A stretch of 64,000 bases of DNA from Thermoplasmata archaeon (GCA_021797355.1 JAJZZX010000003.1:1-64000), one strand, 5' to 3'; numbered from the stretch's first letter, positions 11,655 through 59,492 are shown. The notes: a model not told the origin generated them from the sequence alone. A program made the numbers and translations.

Positions 11655-11797
11655 GTATTGACGGCAGTCACTTAAATGCTGGCTGGCTGCCATACATATT
11701 GAGGATTACCAAGATTATTTGCCATATTGTACAAGTGTTTATAATTCCGCCAGAGACCAGCATGAATTTTTATAGTTCAGATGCATCAAATTAATTA

Positions 11798-12088
11798 ATG
11801 GTATTTCATGCATTAAGTACCTTTATTGCACTTAGTGTCCAGACAGCAACAAGTGGTCAATTGACCACAATTGTTAATCGGCTATATGAAGTAGTGATTT
11901 CAGTCTCCGCAGTTATCATTGCAATACTGTGGATCCCCATTGCAATAAGTTTTTTCGGTTCAGACGAAAATCGGCGGTATGAAGCTAGAGGAAGGCTGAA
12001 AAATGCTCTCATTGGCACCTTTATCTACGTAATTGCGGTGAGCGGCGTTCTCTACGCTGTGGTGAATTTCATAGTTACCGGTTCCTGA
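11798..12088 (+). CDS. VirB2/TrbC- or CedA1-like small membrane protein
   Basis: A 96-residue protein with a hydrophobic N-terminus (1-20), then two membrane helices at about 30-53 and 70-93 joined by a short charged loop (GSDENRRYEARGRLKN). This two-helix hairpin with a basic loop is the architecture of VirB2/TrbC pilins and of the archaeal CedA1/TedC pilins. It is two bases upstream of the VirB6-like gene. The identification rests on topology and context, not on a sequence motif. Confidence 0.5.
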   Translation: MVFHALSTFIALSVQTATSGQLTTIVNRLYEVVISVSAVIIAILWIPIAISFFGSDENRRYEARGRLKNALIGTFIYVIAVSGVLYAVVNFIVTGS

Positions 12089-12089
12089 C

Positions 12090-13142
12090 ATGCTTGGCTA
12101 TTCAGAAGTCATTACCATCCTTTCATATCTTATAAGGGCTGTGACTGCCTTATATTCGCCGCTGCTTGGCCTGATATGGGAAGCCACGGTGAAGTATGGA
12201 CTGGAACCGGGATCAGCGTTTCCAAGCAGCTCCATCAATAGTTCAGGATTTCTCTCACTTTATTCATACATCTACAAAGGATCCATACCAATACTGGTGT
12301 CGGTATTGATCGCTGGTTCAGCACTCCTTCTCATATCGCCAGCCGGCAATCCCAGGAAGCAGAGAATCGGTGGAATATATATCCGCATGTTTGTGGCTAT
12401 CCTGATCTCCGTCTGCTCACTCCTCATTTTTACAGCACTATTTCAGTTACTGGGTTTTGCCTACGACCTTCTCTTTAACCATGCAGGCCCCTCAATATCA
12501 AGTTTCAGCCAAGTTACTGGGATTTCACCTGCTCTCAGTTCCTCCAATGGAACATCCATACTGCTTGTATTAATGAGATTCCTCCTGCTCTCTGCTTATT
12601 TTCTGGCAGTTGGATCGGTCTTTTCCATACTAATCTTCAGGCAGGCACTTCTCATAGTTTTCGTTCTGGTAATGCCGTTTCTTACAATTCTGTCAATTAT
12701 GGACATTGGGCAGAAATACGCAAGGATGGGGTGGGAACTTGCAATCGAGCTAACGCTATTTCAGTTTGCTGCTCTTTTATCCATAATGCTTGCTGTCATA
12801 TTTAGATCCAATGTTCCCCTGAATCTTGCCTTCTTATTTCTGCCATCAATACTTCCCGGATACCTGCTTTTTTCCGGACGGGGTCTTGCATCAGCCCCAG
12901 TTCTAGGTTTCCTTGGTGGAATGACACTTGGAAGTTCAGCCACTCGAATTGTCGGCATGGCCTCCGCGGTGGCAGATTCGACTTCTGGAGGAAATCCATT
13001 CCCATTTGTAGCCACAGGTGCCCTGCTTCCAGCAGCAGATTACAGGTCGATTCAGGGGATCAAGATCAGCAGGAGAGTCCCCTCATCAATAACTGAAGAT
13101 GCAGTTAAAGAGGAACTGAAGTACAGAAAGGATGATTACTAA
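12090..13142 (+). CDS. VirB6/TrbL- or CedA-like multi-pass membrane protein
   Basis: A 350-residue integral membrane protein with seven or eight likely helices between residues 5 and 285 and a hydrophilic C-terminal tail (about 300-350). The central stretch FRQALLIVFVLVMPFLTILS, an Arg-led helix broken by proline, resembles the core of TrbL/VirB6 and CedA proteins, which form the inner-membrane channel of type IV secretion systems. It lies between the pilin-like gene and the VirB4-like ATPase. Its TAA overlaps the ATG of a 33-codon frame. Confidence 0.55.
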   Translation: MLGYSEVITILSYLIRAVTALYSPLLGLIWEATVKYGLEPGSAFPSSSINSSGFLSLYSYIYKGSIPILVSVLIAGSALLLISPAGNPRKQRIGGIYIRMFVAILISVCSLLIFTALFQLLGFAYDLLFNHAGPSISSFSQVTGISPALSSSNGTSILLVLMRFLLLSAYFLAVGSVFSILIFRQALLIVFVLVMPFLTILSIMDIGQKYARMGWELAIELTLFQFAALLSIMLAVIFRSNVPLNLAFLFLPSILPGYLLFSGRGLASAPVLGFLGGMTLGSSATRIVGMASAVADSTSGGNPFPFVATGALLPAADYRSIQGIKISRRVPSSITEDAVKEELKYRKDDY

Positions 13143-13243
13143 TGTATGCAGAACTTACCCGGCATCACGGAATTCTTTCATGCTGCAGGAATAAAAATGA
13201 CAGTCATCCCATGCAAGTCCAAAACTGTGGCAGAATAGGGTGA
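13142..13243 (+). CDS. Possible 33-residue small protein
   Basis: A 33-codon frame fills exactly the space between the VirB6-like and VirB4-like genes. Its ATG overlaps the upstream TAA (TAATG) and its TGA ends one base before the next ATG, and that TGA is part of the AGGGTGA ribosome site of the ATPase gene. The product is hydrophilic with three Cys and three His (MYAELTRHHG, SCCRNK). It may simply be a translational bridge. Confidence 0.3.
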   Translation: MYAELTRHHGILSCCRNKNDSHPMQVQNCGRIG

Positions 13244-13244
13244 A

Positions 13245-15323
13245 ATGTTGATCAGGCTCCGTATTCCCGCAAATCTGCTGAACTATCGCCCCACCATATT
13301 GGGATTTGATCTCCAGAGAATAATTATGGCATTCTTAATTACGCTTCTATCCGTCTTGGCATTCCGGATCTCAGCGATTCCTGAGTTTCTCTCTATCTCA
13401 CTGCTGTCTGCAATAGTTCTGCTCCGCCACAAGGGAAACTACGTTTCAGACCTAATTTTACAGAAGATCAAATATGCGGTATCACGCAAGGAAATTTCGC
13501 ACCTTAAACTTGATCCTTCCATAAGAACAACTATCGCAAGCGGCATTACGGTATTTGAGCATGACAGTGAAAAGTTCTGCCTGATCAAGATAAGCGGCAG
13601 AGAGGTTTCAAGCCTGAGGGATCGTGATCAGGTCAGCCTTTACAGATCGCTGGAAAATATGATCAACACTTCGGGTCTCGCAGTTGATGTCTATCTATAT
13701 TCGCCTGGTGATTCCAAGGGGAGCGGTAGCAAACCGTTCCAGATCATGAGAGTAGTATCATCACCAGGGGGCAATACACAAAGTGCAAATAATCTGGCTG
13801 CAGAGGCCATAAGAATAATGGAAATGCTGAATACCATGGAGTTTCAGTGTGAACCTGGAAATTTAGAAATGTTCAGGGAATTTTCCTCAAATTTCATGGG
13901 TATCCGGCACCATAGGAAATCCATAGAAGCAGGCAATGAAAATCAACGGTCCAGGCCAGCGCGGAGGTATTTCAGATACGTTTCATCAGACAGGAGCTAT
14001 TCAGATCTTTGCCTAACGGATGCAACATACGATCTTGGGCCCTCCTTCATGGAATTAGCCCGCTCCATGAACATTGAATTTTCCATAAAAACCACGTTAC
14101 GAAATTTCAGTAGGGAAAATGGCTCGGCAATGCTGAAGCGAATGATTGCGGAGAGAAGGGCCGAATCTAGGTCAGCAGGTTCAAGCTTCAAGAATTCTAG
14201 AAATCGGCTCAAACTCCAGGTCGAGGATGGATCCAGAATGATCCAGCTCCTGGACGAAGAGGGAATTCTGCCAACAATGGTTAGCGTGACAGCTAGAATC
14301 TATTCCCAACATCCCGCAGAGCTGACAGATAAGATAGCCAGGTTTCAAAATGTGATGTCATATTTGGGCCTGGAATTTTCTTTTCCTGGCGGCTCAAACG
14401 CAATCCCGGTGAATCCAATTGAAGGGGTTACACATGCAGTTTCGCACAGGAATCAATACCTCATGAACACACGGGCTGCAGCAACAATCCTTCCAATCCT
14501 GACCGATTTATCCGTAAGTGCAAGAGGAATTGAAATCGGATACAATGATCTTAACGAGCAGCCAGTATATCTTGACCTCTACTCAGGGACATCACACAAT
14601 GCCCTGGTGCTTGGTGAAACAGGTTCAGGAAAATCTTTCTTTTCCAAAAGGATGCTGGATAAATGTTTCAGCACCTACATGGGATTCTCCGCCATTATTT
14701 TTGATCCTCTAATCGAATATGACTGCTCTGGCAAGGAGGAATCCTGCAGAATCATTACAATGAGGTCCTTGGTTTCCCAAATGGGAGAAAATTGGGATAG
14801 CGTCAATTGCACCCCCATTCTCAATACTGGACAAGGCAAAGATAGTATATACATAGTCAGGCCTGATCATTCTGGACTCGAGGAGGACAGCCAACTGCAG
14901 TTGGCCCTGCTGGACTTTATTCTGGAAATATTCAGGACCAGAGGAGGTTACAAGATGGCTGTACTTGATGAATTCCATCTCCTGATGAAAAACGGGGCAG
15001 TTCTTGAGAAGCTTGACTCCATGATGAGGCACTCCCGCCATTATCAGGCTTCCATAGTAGGGATATCACAGAACGTTACTGATTTCACTGGAACCTGGGG
15101 TCACTCGATAGTTTTCAACAGCGCCAATATTTTTGTCTTCCGGACACGTAGCATTTCCCGGCATGATCTTGTATCACTGAAGCTAGATGATTTCGATATA
15201 GACCGCCCGGAAACTTTACTCGGAGGAAAAGGTCATCCATTCTCAGAATGCATTTACACCGACGGAACGTTTGCCAGGAAAATACGAATCGTTGATAACG
15301 GATCTGGGAAAAATAATTTTTGA
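13245..15323 (+). CDS. VirB4/CedB-like T4SS ATPase with VirB3-like N-terminus
   Basis: A 692-residue ATPase of the VirB4/TraC-HerA superfamily. Residues 1-85 hold IPANLLNYRPTILGFDL and two membrane helices (26-60), as in PrgI/VirB3 proteins, so VirB3 appears fused to VirB4. The middle (90-420) matches the VirB4 N-domain only in size. Walker A is GETGSGKS at 457-464, Walker B AVLDE with D575-E576, and GISQN near 605 fits the Q motif. It would power DNA or pilin movement at the membrane. No relaxase or VirD4 gene is adjacent. Confidence 0.75.
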   Translation: MLIRLRIPANLLNYRPTILGFDLQRIIMAFLITLLSVLAFRISAIPEFLSISLLSAIVLLRHKGNYVSDLILQKIKYAVSRKEISHLKLDPSIRTTIASGITVFEHDSEKFCLIKISGREVSSLRDRDQVSLYRSLENMINTSGLAVDVYLYSPGDSKGSGSKPFQIMRVVSSPGGNTQSANNLAAEAIRIMEMLNTMEFQCEPGNLEMFREFSSNFMGIRHHRKSIEAGNENQRSRPARRYFRYVSSDRSYSDLCLTDATYDLGPSFMELARSMNIEFSIKTTLRNFSRENGSAMLKRMIAERRAESRSAGSSFKNSRNRLKLQVEDGSRMIQLLDEEGILPTMVSVTARIYSQHPAELTDKIARFQNVMSYLGLEFSFPGGSNAIPVNPIEGVTHAVSHRNQYLMNTRAAATILPILTDLSVSARGIEIGYNDLNEQPVYLDLYSGTSHNALVLGETGSGKSFFSKRMLDKCFSTYMGFSAIIFDPLIEYDCSGKEESCRIITMRSLVSQMGENWDSVNCTPILNTGQGKDSIYIVRPDHSGLEEDSQLQLALLDFILEIFRTRGGYKMAVLDEFHLLMKNGAVLEKLDSMMRHSRHYQASIVGISQNVTDFTGTWGHSIVFNSANIFVFRTRSISRHDLVSLKLDDFDIDRPETLLGGKGHPFSECIYTDGTFARKIRIVDNGSGKNNF

Positions 15324-15331
15324 AGTGCACT

Positions 15332-15574
15332 TTATTGGGGTGCAGAATCTTCTTGCTTTATCTTTGCCTGGACAAGAGCAAGTTCAAGAATGCCAAAGAT
15401 TACCATTGGTATCACGAATGAAGTGAGTCCAACATCAGCCCAGGTGTTGTATACAATTGACCACGCAACATAGAAACCAGCGCCTATGAAAAGAAGCCCG
15501 AATCCCATGAATTTGCCCCAGAAGTGTCTCTGCCATCCCTTGGGAAGTATTCTTGCTAATGAGTTCACTGCCAT
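15332..15574 (-). CDS. Small two-helix membrane protein
   Basis: An 80-residue protein with two membrane helices at about residues 20-42 and 49-69 and a polar C-terminal tail. No family recognised. It converges on the VirB4-like gene with an 8-base gap, so it is not part of that operon. The start is the ATG at 15574, the only one before the first helix. Confidence 0.5.
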   Translation of the reverse strand: MAVNSLARILPKGWQRHFWGKFMGFGLLFIGAGFYVAWSIVYNTWADVGLTSFVIPMVIFGILELALVQAKIKQEDSAPQ

Positions 15575-55693: not shown

Positions 55694-56673
55694 TTTTCCA
55701 GAAAATTAAAATTCTATTTTTTTCTTACCCTTTCTTGCGGTTTCCAGGACTTCACAACAGAAAGGGCATATTCCTTGCTCTTGCAGCAAATATTCTCTGG
55801 GGTACAACTTTTGTTGTTTCACAGGTTGCTCTTTCGTATGTGAATCCATATGATCTAGTGTTCCTCCGATCCCTTGTAGGGACAATTATCATCCTAGCAA
55901 TATTCATTTTCACGCCCCAGTTGAGGCATATGGCATTTCTGGAGCTTATGCGGCTCCGCATCTGGATACTATCCATACTCTATGCTGTTGGCTTTCTGCT
56001 TCAGTATCTCGGGCAGGACTATTCGGACGCATCAAACGCCACAATGCTTGCCAACCTTGCACCCGTATTTATCCCGATAATGGCAGCACTCTTCCTGCGA
56101 GATAGAATAACCAGGCTTGGCATCCTTGTCATGGTAATGGGCGGTTCCGGGCTTGGGCTGATGTCGCTGGGCAGCCTTCATCTCAATCCTGATGAGATCC
56201 TGGGAGATGCCCTTCTTATTGGGACCTCATTATCATACTCACTATTCATTGTGCTCAGCAAGAGGTACAGGGCAAGCGGCCTAGAATCATCGTTCCTTGT
56301 AATAATATTGGTGACATTGATGCTTTTGCCCCAAGCCATATTCCTCGGGCATCTGGGCCCTGGTTCGTTCGACATTCCAATACGAGCACTCATTGACATT
56401 ATATGGCTGGGGGCAACAGGTACAGTCATTGCACTGGCACTTTATCTCAGGGCACTGCGGTCAATAAATGCAACAGCCTCCGGCATATTTCTCCTGCTTC
56501 AGCTCGTCTTCGGGCTCGTGCTTGCTTTCCTTATGCTGGGAGAAAGGCTGAGCCTGCTTCAGATGCTTGGGGCTGCACTGATCCTGTCTGCCATCGTGGC
56601 GATATCCTTTGACGGGTCCGGGCGCAGTGAAGGTGAGCTGCAGGATAAATCAACCTTTCCCGAGGTAAGGTGA
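55690..56673 (+). CDS. EamA/DMT-family transporter
   Basis: A 327-residue transporter with ten helices in two EamA repeats (ANILWGTTFVVSQVALSYVN and DALLIGTSLSYSLFIVLSKR are the repeat starts). The GTG at 55690 overlaps the padR TGA; an internal start after LHNRKG is possible because the first 25 residues are poorly conserved-looking. Efflux of amino acids, nucleosides or drugs is typical. It is co-transcribed with the PadR repressor. The 3' end overlaps the convergent gene by 24 bases. Confidence 0.82.
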   Translation: MIFQKIKILFFSYPFLRFPGLHNRKGIFLALAANILWGTTFVVSQVALSYVNPYDLVFLRSLVGTIIILAIFIFTPQLRHMAFLELMRLRIWILSILYAVGFLLQYLGQDYSDASNATMLANLAPVFIPIMAALFLRDRITRLGILVMVMGGSGLGLMSLGSLHLNPDEILGDALLIGTSLSYSLFIVLSKRYRASGLESSFLVIILVTLMLLPQAIFLGHLGPGSFDIPIRALIDIIWLGATGTVIALALYLRALRSINATASGIFLLLQLVFGLVLAFLMLGERLSLLQMLGAALILSAIVAISFDGSGRSEGELQDKSTFPEVR

Positions 56674-57582
56674 AAATTTTCTCATGAGCATATTTTCGAT
56701 TTCAGGAAGACTGGCCTGGAACTGGGCTGCAATGCCGGGAGTGGCAGACACCGTCAGTATGGTTCCGTTTGCATTTTCCTGTGCCACAAGCGGACCAGTG
56801 CCATGCATTCCAACTACAGTCCAGCCTCCAATCCTTGAAAGTTTCTCTAGAAAGCCGCTTCCCTTCCTGAGCCTATAGTATGGATATCTGATTTCAATGT
56901 TCTCTGATGCAAATTCTAACCATGCAACATCCATGTACTGGTCCCTCTGAAACAGAGCAATGCCATGCCCTCCTTCCCCTAGTCTGAGGACTCCTAATCC
57001 TGAAGCCTTCAGCATAACATCCCCGAACCTCAAAGCCTCACCGTGTGGTGATAAGGTCCAGTGTAGCCTCCGGATTCTCTCCTCCTCGTACCACTGGGCA
57101 GGGTTGCCCCTTGCGAAAAATGATCTCTCTGGGAACTGCAGATTCGCTACCTTTCCCGCCACCTGTCCTGCCGGTACGAGGTGATCAGCGGCCAGCGACC
57201 GGAAGATTTCGTGTGATATGCTGCCTGCACCCTCGATCTCGATTTCAGTTCCATGTGAATATATGGATGCGGCGATGTTCCCCCGGTAGTTAAGTCCTGT
57301 GTAGATTTGGTATGCACCTTCCATTGAAAACTCAACAGGTGAATAGGCGTCAGCAAAGCTGCTCATCAGTGCCTTCGGGAATCCAGTAAAGAACCAGTCC
57401 ATGAAGAATTGCTTCACCCTGAACCTGTGGCCGAGGAAGTGAACCAGGTACCTCAATGTGGGCCAGCGGGAATCGGCAGTCCTGATGCTGATTTCTTCGG
57501 AGGCAAGATCCCATGGTATGTATGGTATGAAGGGCAGTTCAAATTCATCGATCCTTGAGAAATCATTTAGGCTTACAATCAT
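56650..57582 (-). CDS. Unknown protein coupled to the HerA/VirD4-like ATPase
   Basis: A 310-residue soluble protein of unknown family. It has mixed alpha/beta character, with many aromatic residues (YIPWDLASEE, RVKQFFMDWFF) and a likely beta-rich middle (SFFARGNPAQWYEEERIRRL, then FGDVMLKASGLGVLRLGEGG). I chose ATG 57582, which overlaps the TGA of the ATPase gene (ATGA); the frame is open to 57633. Strict coupling suggests a subunit or regulator of the ATPase. No NurA nuclease motif is seen. Confidence 0.6.
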   Translation of the reverse strand: MIVSLNDFSRIDEFELPFIPYIPWDLASEEISIRTADSRWPTLRYLVHFLGHRFRVKQFFMDWFFTGFPKALMSSFADAYSPVEFSMEGAYQIYTGLNYRGNIAASIYSHGTEIEIEGAGSISHEIFRSLAADHLVPAGQVAGKVANLQFPERSFFARGNPAQWYEEERIRRLHWTLSPHGEALRFGDVMLKASGLGVLRLGEGGHGIALFQRDQYMDVAWLEFASENIEIRYPYYRLRKGSGFLEKLSRIGGWTVVGMHGTGPLVAQENANGTILTVSATPGIAAQFQASLPEIENMLMRKFSPYLGKG

Positions 57583-59492
57583 GGCCTGACACCGAACACC
57601 TTCATTATGTCTATGCTTCCGTCGCTGCTGCACATTCCTGCGATTCTGGAGGCATTCGCCTCGCCGAACATGCTGATCACCTCCCTCGCGTTCACAGACA
57701 CATGTCCGGAACAGTACCTTTCATAAAGGAAAACCCTCATCTGTGGGTTGGGAAGCCCTTTCAGGGTCAAGATGAAGCTTCCTGTTTCCAGATGCCCGTG
57801 GATCAGTGATCTGAGCTTCCCGGAAGCGAAGAACCTGAATTTTTCACTGTATTCTATTATGCTTATCTCGCGGAGAGCCGATATTAGATCGTACTGCCTC
57901 TGTTCGGCTTTCTGGGCAGCTGCCGTTAGCAAGCGCCTGAAAAATTCGCCTGAATGCCCTGGCGGGACAACAAAGATTATCCTGTATCCGGCGTAGTTGA
58001 TCACCTTGTTAATAACCCTCCCGAAAGCCACTAGATCTGAGACCTCAACCTCAACTATGAATTTCAGTGGACCAGATTCTGCAACGCAGTCAGGTATGCC
58101 CCCCTCAATCCTGCTTCCGGCAGTCACTGTCATTCCATGCTTTGTCAGGTAGTCGCATATCTTTGTTACCAGGTATTCATGAAGATCAATGGCCTTGTTA
58201 TCACTCTCAAGGTGCAGCTCATTGCCATAATGCATTACAGATCTCTCTTTTACAGCCTCAATGTCAGCATCCGCAGTAACTTCAGGCATTTCAGGCACGA
58301 AGGAAAGCGGCCCATGGCTCCCCTCACCATCCCGGGACCAGATGACGCACCTATGGAACCCCTGCGAGGTCAGCACGTCAGTGAGCTTTGATGCCAGAGG
58401 ATCAGGAAAGAACGCTGAGGAAATTGCCTTGGCCTCCTCCCTTGGCAGTGAGAAAGAAAAGAAGCACCCAGGATTAGATATTAGATTCTCCGCCATATAA
58501 GATTTCGCAGATGATGCGAACTGGGTGGCGAGTATCATCCTGATATTGTATTTTCTTCCTTCTCGCAGAATTCTGTCCATAATGTTCTCTGGAAGAAGCT
58601 GGGCCTCGTCTACCACTATGTACAGCGGAACGCTCGAATCGCCACCCGTTAGCCTGTATCCCCAGGCTTTCAGTATCATAAGTATGGAGATGATGCCATA
58701 GGTCTCCTCTGAAACAGACCCTTTCCATATTTCTGGCACGATGAGATTCCCAGCAGATGAAAAGATAGTGGAGAAATCCGCTGAATCAGACTGCCCAGAA
58801 ACAATGTTCCTGATACCTGCATCAGTAATCAGGGGGAGGAGTTTGTTGATGGAGCTTGCAACGTACTGGTTCCAGCCTTTCCAGTCCGCCATGGCCATTT
58901 TAAGGAAGGCTGAAAGCTGGGGAGAAGGCACCTTTCCGGCAAACCTCCTCATCTTGCCGCTGTCAAGTAGCATATCCAGCAGATCGGACAGCCTTGTCTC
59001 TTCCGATGCCCGGATCAACGATGACAGTAGGGATGAGAAAATGACCTCAAGCCTCGGTCCCCATGTGCCCTGGGAAAAGACCCCGTTGGAGGAGAATGCG
59101 TCCCTAACCCATCCGCTGTAGAACTCCGGATTTGATCTTGATCCATGGAGCGGGTTCATTGTGATGGCCCATTCCCTGCCGTCCAAGGTCACAGGACGTG
59201 ACGGAATCACTATTGCATCATTGGGGAACTGTGAAATCATCCATCTGGCAAGATCACCGTGGGGATCAAGGATGAGCACAGAACACTTTCCAGAACTGGC
59301 AAGATTCTTTCCTAGTATCTTCAGAAGGCTTGACTTGCCGCTTCCTGTCCTGCCCAGGATCACGCTGTGTGTTGAGAGCATCTTGTCGTCAACTGAAACC
59401 TCCCTGCCGGTAAATGTCCTGCCAATGGGCCTGCCTGCCCGGGAAAGGAACGCATCCACCGAATGCGATATTAACGGTTCCCTTCTGTACAT
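57579..59492 (-). CDS. HerA/VirD4-like ATPase with C-terminal nuclease-like domain
   Basis: A 637-residue FtsK/HerA-superfamily ATPase. Walker A is GRTGSGKS (47-54), LILDPHGDLARW (73-84) is the conserved DNA-pump strand, Walker B VVDEAQ (293-298) and LATQ (321-324) the Q motif. Residues about 433-530 look like a PD-(D/E)xK nuclease fold: GIPDCVAES, then KFIVEVEVSD. It has no membrane segment. This set fits the TraG/VirD4 or HerA group that moves DNA through membranes or repairs it. The partner gene overlaps its end. Confidence 0.72.
   Translation of the reverse strand: MYRREPLISHSVDAFLSRAGRPIGRTFTGREVSVDDKMLSTHSVILGRTGSGKSSLLKILGKNLASSGKCSVLILDPHGDLARWMISQFPNDAIVIPSRPVTLDGREWAITMNPLHGSRSNPEFYSGWVRDAFSSNGVFSQGTWGPRLEVIFSSLLSSLIRASEETRLSDLLDMLLDSGKMRRFAGKVPSPQLSAFLKMAMADWKGWNQYVASSINKLLPLITDAGIRNIVSGQSDSADFSTIFSSAGNLIVPEIWKGSVSEETYGIISILMILKAWGYRLTGGDSSVPLYIVVDEAQLLPENIMDRILREGRKYNIRMILATQFASSAKSYMAENLISNPGCFFSFSLPREEAKAISSAFFPDPLASKLTDVLTSQGFHRCVIWSRDGEGSHGPLSFVPEMPEVTADADIEAVKERSVMHYGNELHLESDNKAIDLHEYLVTKICDYLTKHGMTVTAGSRIEGGIPDCVAESGPLKFIVEVEVSDLVAFGRVINKVINYAGYRIIFVVPPGHSGEFFRRLLTAAAQKAEQRQYDLISALREISIIEYSEKFRFFASGKLRSLIHGHLETGSFILTLKGLPNPQMRVFLYERYCSGHVSVNAREVISMFGEANASRIAGMCSSDGSIDIMKVFGVRP

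Follow-up and report, generated by a model that had tools for sequence, protein, structure and literature searches.

Ced and Ted, the closest described functional precedents for the locus analysed here, are chromosomal sets of VirB2, VirB6 and VirB4 proteins that lack a relaxase and move cellular DNA (PMC9905601, PMC11868833), and Ced has been described as a domesticated type IV secretion system (T4SS) (PMC9905601). Our locus lies in a 64,000-nucleotide stretch of DNA from a Thermoplasmata archaeon (GCA_021797355.1), hereafter the window. With Ced of the Sulfolobales (CedA1, CedA and CedB, with CedD) it shares a chromosomal pilin, a polytopic channel, an ATPase of the VirB4/HerA superfamily and the lack of a relaxase. 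While CedB and CedD have been proposed to share the ATPase role (PMC11868833), here a single chain of VirB4 type also contains a PrgI-like part and a VirB4 N-terminal domain (NTD). Ted of the Thermoproteales (TedC, TedA and TedB), with which we compared the locus by description, likewise has a pilin gene adjoining the channel gene, a VirB4-type ATPase and no reported relaxase; however, TedB is often encoded a few genes away with HerA, ParA and Rad50 alongside (PMC9905601), whereas the present trio is contiguous and stands alone.

In sequence, the best family match of the ATPase is not CedB but the monoderm CD1110/PrgI-type machinery of Bacillota plasmids (for example L130 and L141-L149 in our collection), which has the same order of PrgI, VirB4-NTD and VirB4 ATPase, although these are three genes on large plasmids there and one chromosomally encoded protein here. 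Within the Thermoplasmatales, a VirB4 component, a multipass protein and small membrane proteins are clustered in Cuniculiplasma divulgatum (CSP5_1185-1189) and were listed as type IV secretion components in 2016, in one sentence that gives no VirB2, VirB3 or VirB6 assignment, distribution or function (PMC5155288). The initial annotation of the window knew of no earlier description in such an archaeon, which holds for analysis of the genes but not for their listing. Euryarchaeal DNA transfer requiring a VirB4-like ATPase is also known from the conjugative plasmid pT33-3 of Thermococcus (PMC12857230), which differs from a chromosomal trio in being plasmid-borne and in carrying both VirB4 and VirD4. 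Our searches of openly accessible papers yielded no assignment of the parts of the trio, no demonstration of its fixation and no link to Ced or Ted.

The three genes are read rightward on the plus strand, as initially annotated, and encode a VirB2/CedA1-like pilin forming a two-helix hairpin (11798-12088, 96 aa), a VirB6/TrbL/CedA-like polytopic membrane channel (12090-13142, 350 aa), for which hydropathy gives seven clear TM segments instead of the eight helices first proposed, and a VirB3(PrgI-like)-VirB4 fusion ATPase (13245-15323, 692 aa). The tight spacing described for the trio applies to the pilin and channel genes, which are 1 bp apart, but not to the channel and ATPase genes, between which lies a gap of 102 bp. 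A putative TATA box (TTTATAA, 11738-11744, plus strand), proposed from the sequence alone, precedes the pilin start by approximately 55 nt.

Profile searches showed that the pilin is a homologue of T4SS (VirB2-like) pilins. All 26 aligned pilins (alignment A2) matched the Pfam T4SS_pilin model PF18895 at E<=0.01, the best at 9.9e-8, and the window copy matched with an E-value of 8.3e-6 and 26.2 bits, falling 0.4 bits short of the cut-off of 26.6; it also matched the NCBIfam model for a pilin-like conjugal transfer protein (E 2.3e-4). The two helices noted initially were recovered as hydrophobic segments at residues 32-50 and 75-93, and an AF2 model built from two sequences gave a helical hairpin (helices 22-52 and 57-94, pLDDT 70). 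A Foldseek search with this model returned no PDB match under E 0.001, a result that is little informative for a two-helix hairpin, and the pilin profile found nothing relevant in the PDB. The pilin is the most conserved member of the trio (identity 81-85% within a genus and 45-66% across the family), and throughout the family it is small and bare, with 83-108 aa. Pilins of another build were observed in a relative of family f5 (G040), where four tandem genes of 320-405 aa (L064:12826-17685, minus strand) end in a C-terminal T4SS-pilin hairpin that is preceded by an apparent signal peptide, an ectodomain of approximately 200-300 aa and, in three of the four, a linker rich in Gly, Ser and Trp. 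A fifth pilin of 160 aa adjoins the four, these headed pilins adjoin the channel gene, and similar C-terminal pilin domains are encoded at L067:12262-14031 and L110:11925-14030.

The window channel protein matched no family in the family-model search, and its AF2 model from two sequences was unusable (pLDDT 39). Its assignment as VirB6-like is well supported by homology, since the channel profile aligned in hhalign with class-level orthologues (99.6% at order level, 99.1% for f7 and 96.8% for f18, the f7 and f18 proteins being those encoded beside VirB4); the f18 orthologues matched TrbL/VirB6 (PF04610) in three of four genomes as the genome-best hit (E 5.7e-5, 1.6e-4 and 2.5e-4); a direct comparison with R388-type VirB6 gave a moderate 66% against 0.1-0.2% for controls, including a reversed one; and the residues R184 and P196 never vary across six families. 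These two residues, the only invariant columns in the alignment of 26 sequences, bear out the Arg-proline helix of the initial annotation, and the protein groups with TrbL/VirB6 and not with an unrelated transporter family, the outcome that had been named as speaking against the reading. We saw no homology between pilin and channel (0.3%), unlike in Ced, for which homology between CedA1 and CedA has been reported. In three f7 loci (L108:10063-15351, L125:13015-18573 and L113:13295-14899), the neighbourhood of the VirB6-like channel gene includes genes for large surface proteins that have PKD domains and few TM segments.

The ATPase was shown by its family matches to be a T4SS VirB4 homologue. 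It matched the NCBIfam models CD1110 (1.7e-16), Mbov_0397 (2.9e-16) and TraC (3e-16), its family profile matched a solved VirB4 structure (PDB 4ag5, 4.3e-13), and hhalign with the Bacillota plasmid VirB4 set gave 100% (E 3e-45). Both motifs of the initial annotation are present, the Walker A motif GETGSGKS at residues 457-464 (14613-14636), of which G457, T459, G460, S461, G462 and K463 are invariant in alignment A1, and the Walker B pair D575-E576 (14967-14972), of which E576 is invariant in alignments A1 and A5. The annotation did not describe an N-terminal membrane segment; the N-terminal part of the protein was compared, as profile A7, with genes of plasmids ordered PrgI, NTD, ATPase. Profile A7 aligned with PrgI (94.1%, E 1.3e-7; reversed control 0.9%), with the bacterial NTD genes (97.7%, E 1.8e-12) and, colinear from end to end, with PrgI and NTD joined (98.7%, E 3.1e-16; reversed controls approximately 1%), but not with the pilin or ATPase genes (under 1%); PrgI, TcpE and VirB3 were the Pfam families matched, weakly, by most A7 members. 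This colinearity is good evidence for a VirB3-like part and marks the 692-aa product as a fusion of VirB3 with VirB4, with a PrgI/VirB3-like membrane segment at approximately residues 1-85 (13245-13499) followed by the VirB4 NTD at approximately residues 88-232 (13506-13940). VirB4 is fused in 17 of the 33 family loci, the window copy included, and split in 16, where split denotes an ATPase of <600 aa preceded by a separate gene of approximately 190-300 aa for the PrgI-like and NTD parts and where some short ATPases, such as those of L049 and L055, are perhaps miscalled or fragmentary. A VirB3-like part would contrast with a published statement that archaea lack VirB3 homologues (PMC11868833).

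A survey of the trio across related genomes, proposed with the initial annotation, was run on the family and the wider class and revealed that the trio is near-universal in the family. Of the family genomes with a completeness of at least 80%, 32 of 33 in the phylum sample had a VirB4 profile match, while the channel was found in 55 of 57 and as a single copy in nearly all. In 31 of 33 family loci the three genes retain their order and strand; the other two lack a called pilin, and one of them lies at a contig end. This recurrence excludes a chance origin of the trio. Profile searches of genome contigs identified relative L071 as that of Thermoplasmata archaeon S147_20_esom, a family-mate (G007). 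VirB4 also occurs in many genomes of f3, f4 and f5, which belong to the same order, presumably the Thermoplasmatales, and, more widely in the class, in f7 and f18.

The surroundings and sequence divergence of the trio are those of a resident locus. Upstream, a regulator, rpiA and a thioesterase gene are repeated across many genera, and the window flanks are metabolic, with genes for pterin, riboflavin, tRNA modification, lipids and purines. No mobile element was seen around the trio, the second outcome that had been named as speaking against the reading. In all three genes dN is well below dS, with dN/dS between L031 and L033 of approximately 0.06 for the pilin, 0.09 for the channel and 0.15 for virB4. 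Trio distances correlated with those of rpiA (Mantel r 0.53-0.67) much as did those of the adjoining thioesterase gene (0.57), as vertical inheritance would predict, and the family VirB4s form one clade (tree support 0.97). The trio is a fixed chromosomal locus, vertically inherited and held by selection, as is a domesticated T4SS. As a separate observation, the trio genes of L039 (G002) and L040 (G017) are identical (dN = dS = 0) despite different genus labels, probably due to a misbinned contig in G002.

The initial annotation had reported neither relaxase nor coupling protein near the trio. The first statement can be extended, as the relaxase family PF03432 is absent from the whole genome. 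As for the second, no dedicated coupling protein was found, but an ATPase of the HerA/VirD4 superfamily is encoded 42 kb away and is unlinked in relatives. The gene of this 637-aa protein (57579-59492), which matches the NCBIfam models CedD (3.3e-8) and HerA (4.6e-8), overlaps a 327-aa gene matching no known family (together 56650-59492, minus strand) and is itself kept in most of the family. We rejected it as a linked coupling protein, since it is conserved without linkage and the ATPase that adjoins VirB4 in f3 represents another paralogue; it may still serve as an unlinked coupling protein. That f3 ATPase, a second HerA/AAA_10 protein of 677-679 aa encoded directly after VirB4 (L068:1421-4107 and L069:10332-13009), is a candidate coupling protein of its own loci, and it is followed by a GINS/Sld5-like gene in L068 and by a gene of the same size in L069. 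The sole PF02534 match in the genome was dismissed as a VirD4, being an ordinary HerA beside a NurA-like gene, and nothing ties HerA-NurA, which lies elsewhere in the genome, to the trio. T4SS without VirD4 are known, so that a coupling protein is not required of the superfamily (PMC12857230). A convergent gene for an 80-aa protein with two TM segments (15332-15574, minus strand) was considered as a CedA2-like fourth part and rejected as an unrelated neighbour, because it is present in 60 of 61 relatives, lies distant from the trio outside this family and also occurs in genomes without VirB4. Its product carries a motif resembling FYxxWSIxYxTWxDxGLYSF; the gene is order-wide but convergent with VirB4 only in the studied family.

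We propose, with a probability of about 0.6, that the trio is a minimal domesticated T4SS for contact-dependent, pilus-based exchange of chromosomal DNA. The DNA-exchange reading rests on the anatomy of the trio, which is that of the Ced/Ted core: pilin, pore and motor, chromosomal and without relaxase. Subunits of the two-helix pilin would be drawn out of the membrane to polymerise as a hollow mating pilus, at whose base the 7-TM protein would supply a VirB6-like pore in the membrane. Anchored to this pore by its N-terminal membrane segment, the VirB3-VirB4 fusion would spend ATP on pilus assembly, DNA pumping or both. Chromosomal DNA could then move between relatives on contact, as in Ced and Ted without a dedicated relaxase, and the transferred DNA may afterwards undergo homologous recombination. 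DNA as the substrate, and the direction of transfer, we infer. Against this reading count the lack of a dedicated coupling protein beside the trio, the moderate direct match of the channel to VirB6 and the ectodomain pilins and nearby PKD proteins of other families, which would suit adhesion as well.

The main alternative is a domesticated T4SS whose surface pilus serves adhesion, aggregation or protein delivery and not DNA transfer. The four tandem pilins of the f5 locus, with N-terminal ectodomains before the hairpin, the PKD-domain surface proteins that neighbour the channel gene in f7 and the lack of a linked coupling ATPase are all compatible with such a role. However, pilins of the studied family are exclusively of the small bare kind, the trio has no conserved candidate effector gene beside it, and Ced and Ted, as the nearest functional precedents, exchange DNA (PMC9905601). 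We regard a purely surface role as rather unlikely, if the most serious competitor. We give still less credence to the trio being a true orthologue of Ced or Ted that was acquired from the Thermoproteota or is shared with them, which would account for the same three components being chromosomal and without relaxase. Here, the ATPase reached only 11.2 bits (E 0.098) against the CedB model, whose cut-off is 700; the Ced models matched neither pilin nor channel at E<=1; and in a VirB4 tree built without Ted sequences, the family grouped with VirB4s of other Thermoplasmata, of monoderm bacteria and of haloarchaea. Of the Ced/Ted-like importer initially suggested, the functional likeness is supported, while membership of Ced by sequence is not. 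That the trio is an integrated conjugative element or its remains, the minimal relic also offered in the initial annotation, is very improbable even though T4SS genes usually reside on mobile elements and the VirB4 is nearest to conjugative-element models, given its fixation as a near-universal locus with a single-copy channel, the conserved rpiA and thioesterase synteny and metabolic flanks, purifying selection with housekeeping-like congruence, the lack of a PF03432 relaxase or of a sporadic, mobile distribution with an integrase, and the finding of no close relative on plasmids and, at the search sensitivity applied, none among viral contigs.

Populations of Ferroplasma recombine freely (reviewed in PMC2704941). 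The trio is a concrete gene set that can be tested as the driver of the heavy recombination in acid-mine populations of this genus. Ferroplasma is also a member of the Thermoplasmatales, and we know of no machinery assigned to its recombination. A further proposition, evenly balanced to us, is that a domesticated T4SS distinct from Ced and Ted belongs to the class Thermoplasmata itself, exchanges chromosomal DNA there and might account for the free recombination among acidophile populations. Archaea would also gain a recognisable VirB3-like part through the VirB3-VirB4 fusion, which half of the relatives encode as two genes. To our knowledge, only for the Thermoproteota has the exchange of chromosomal DNA by domesticated conjugation machines been described. 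A fixed and selected version across a Thermoplasmata family would extend such machines to a second archaeal phylum.
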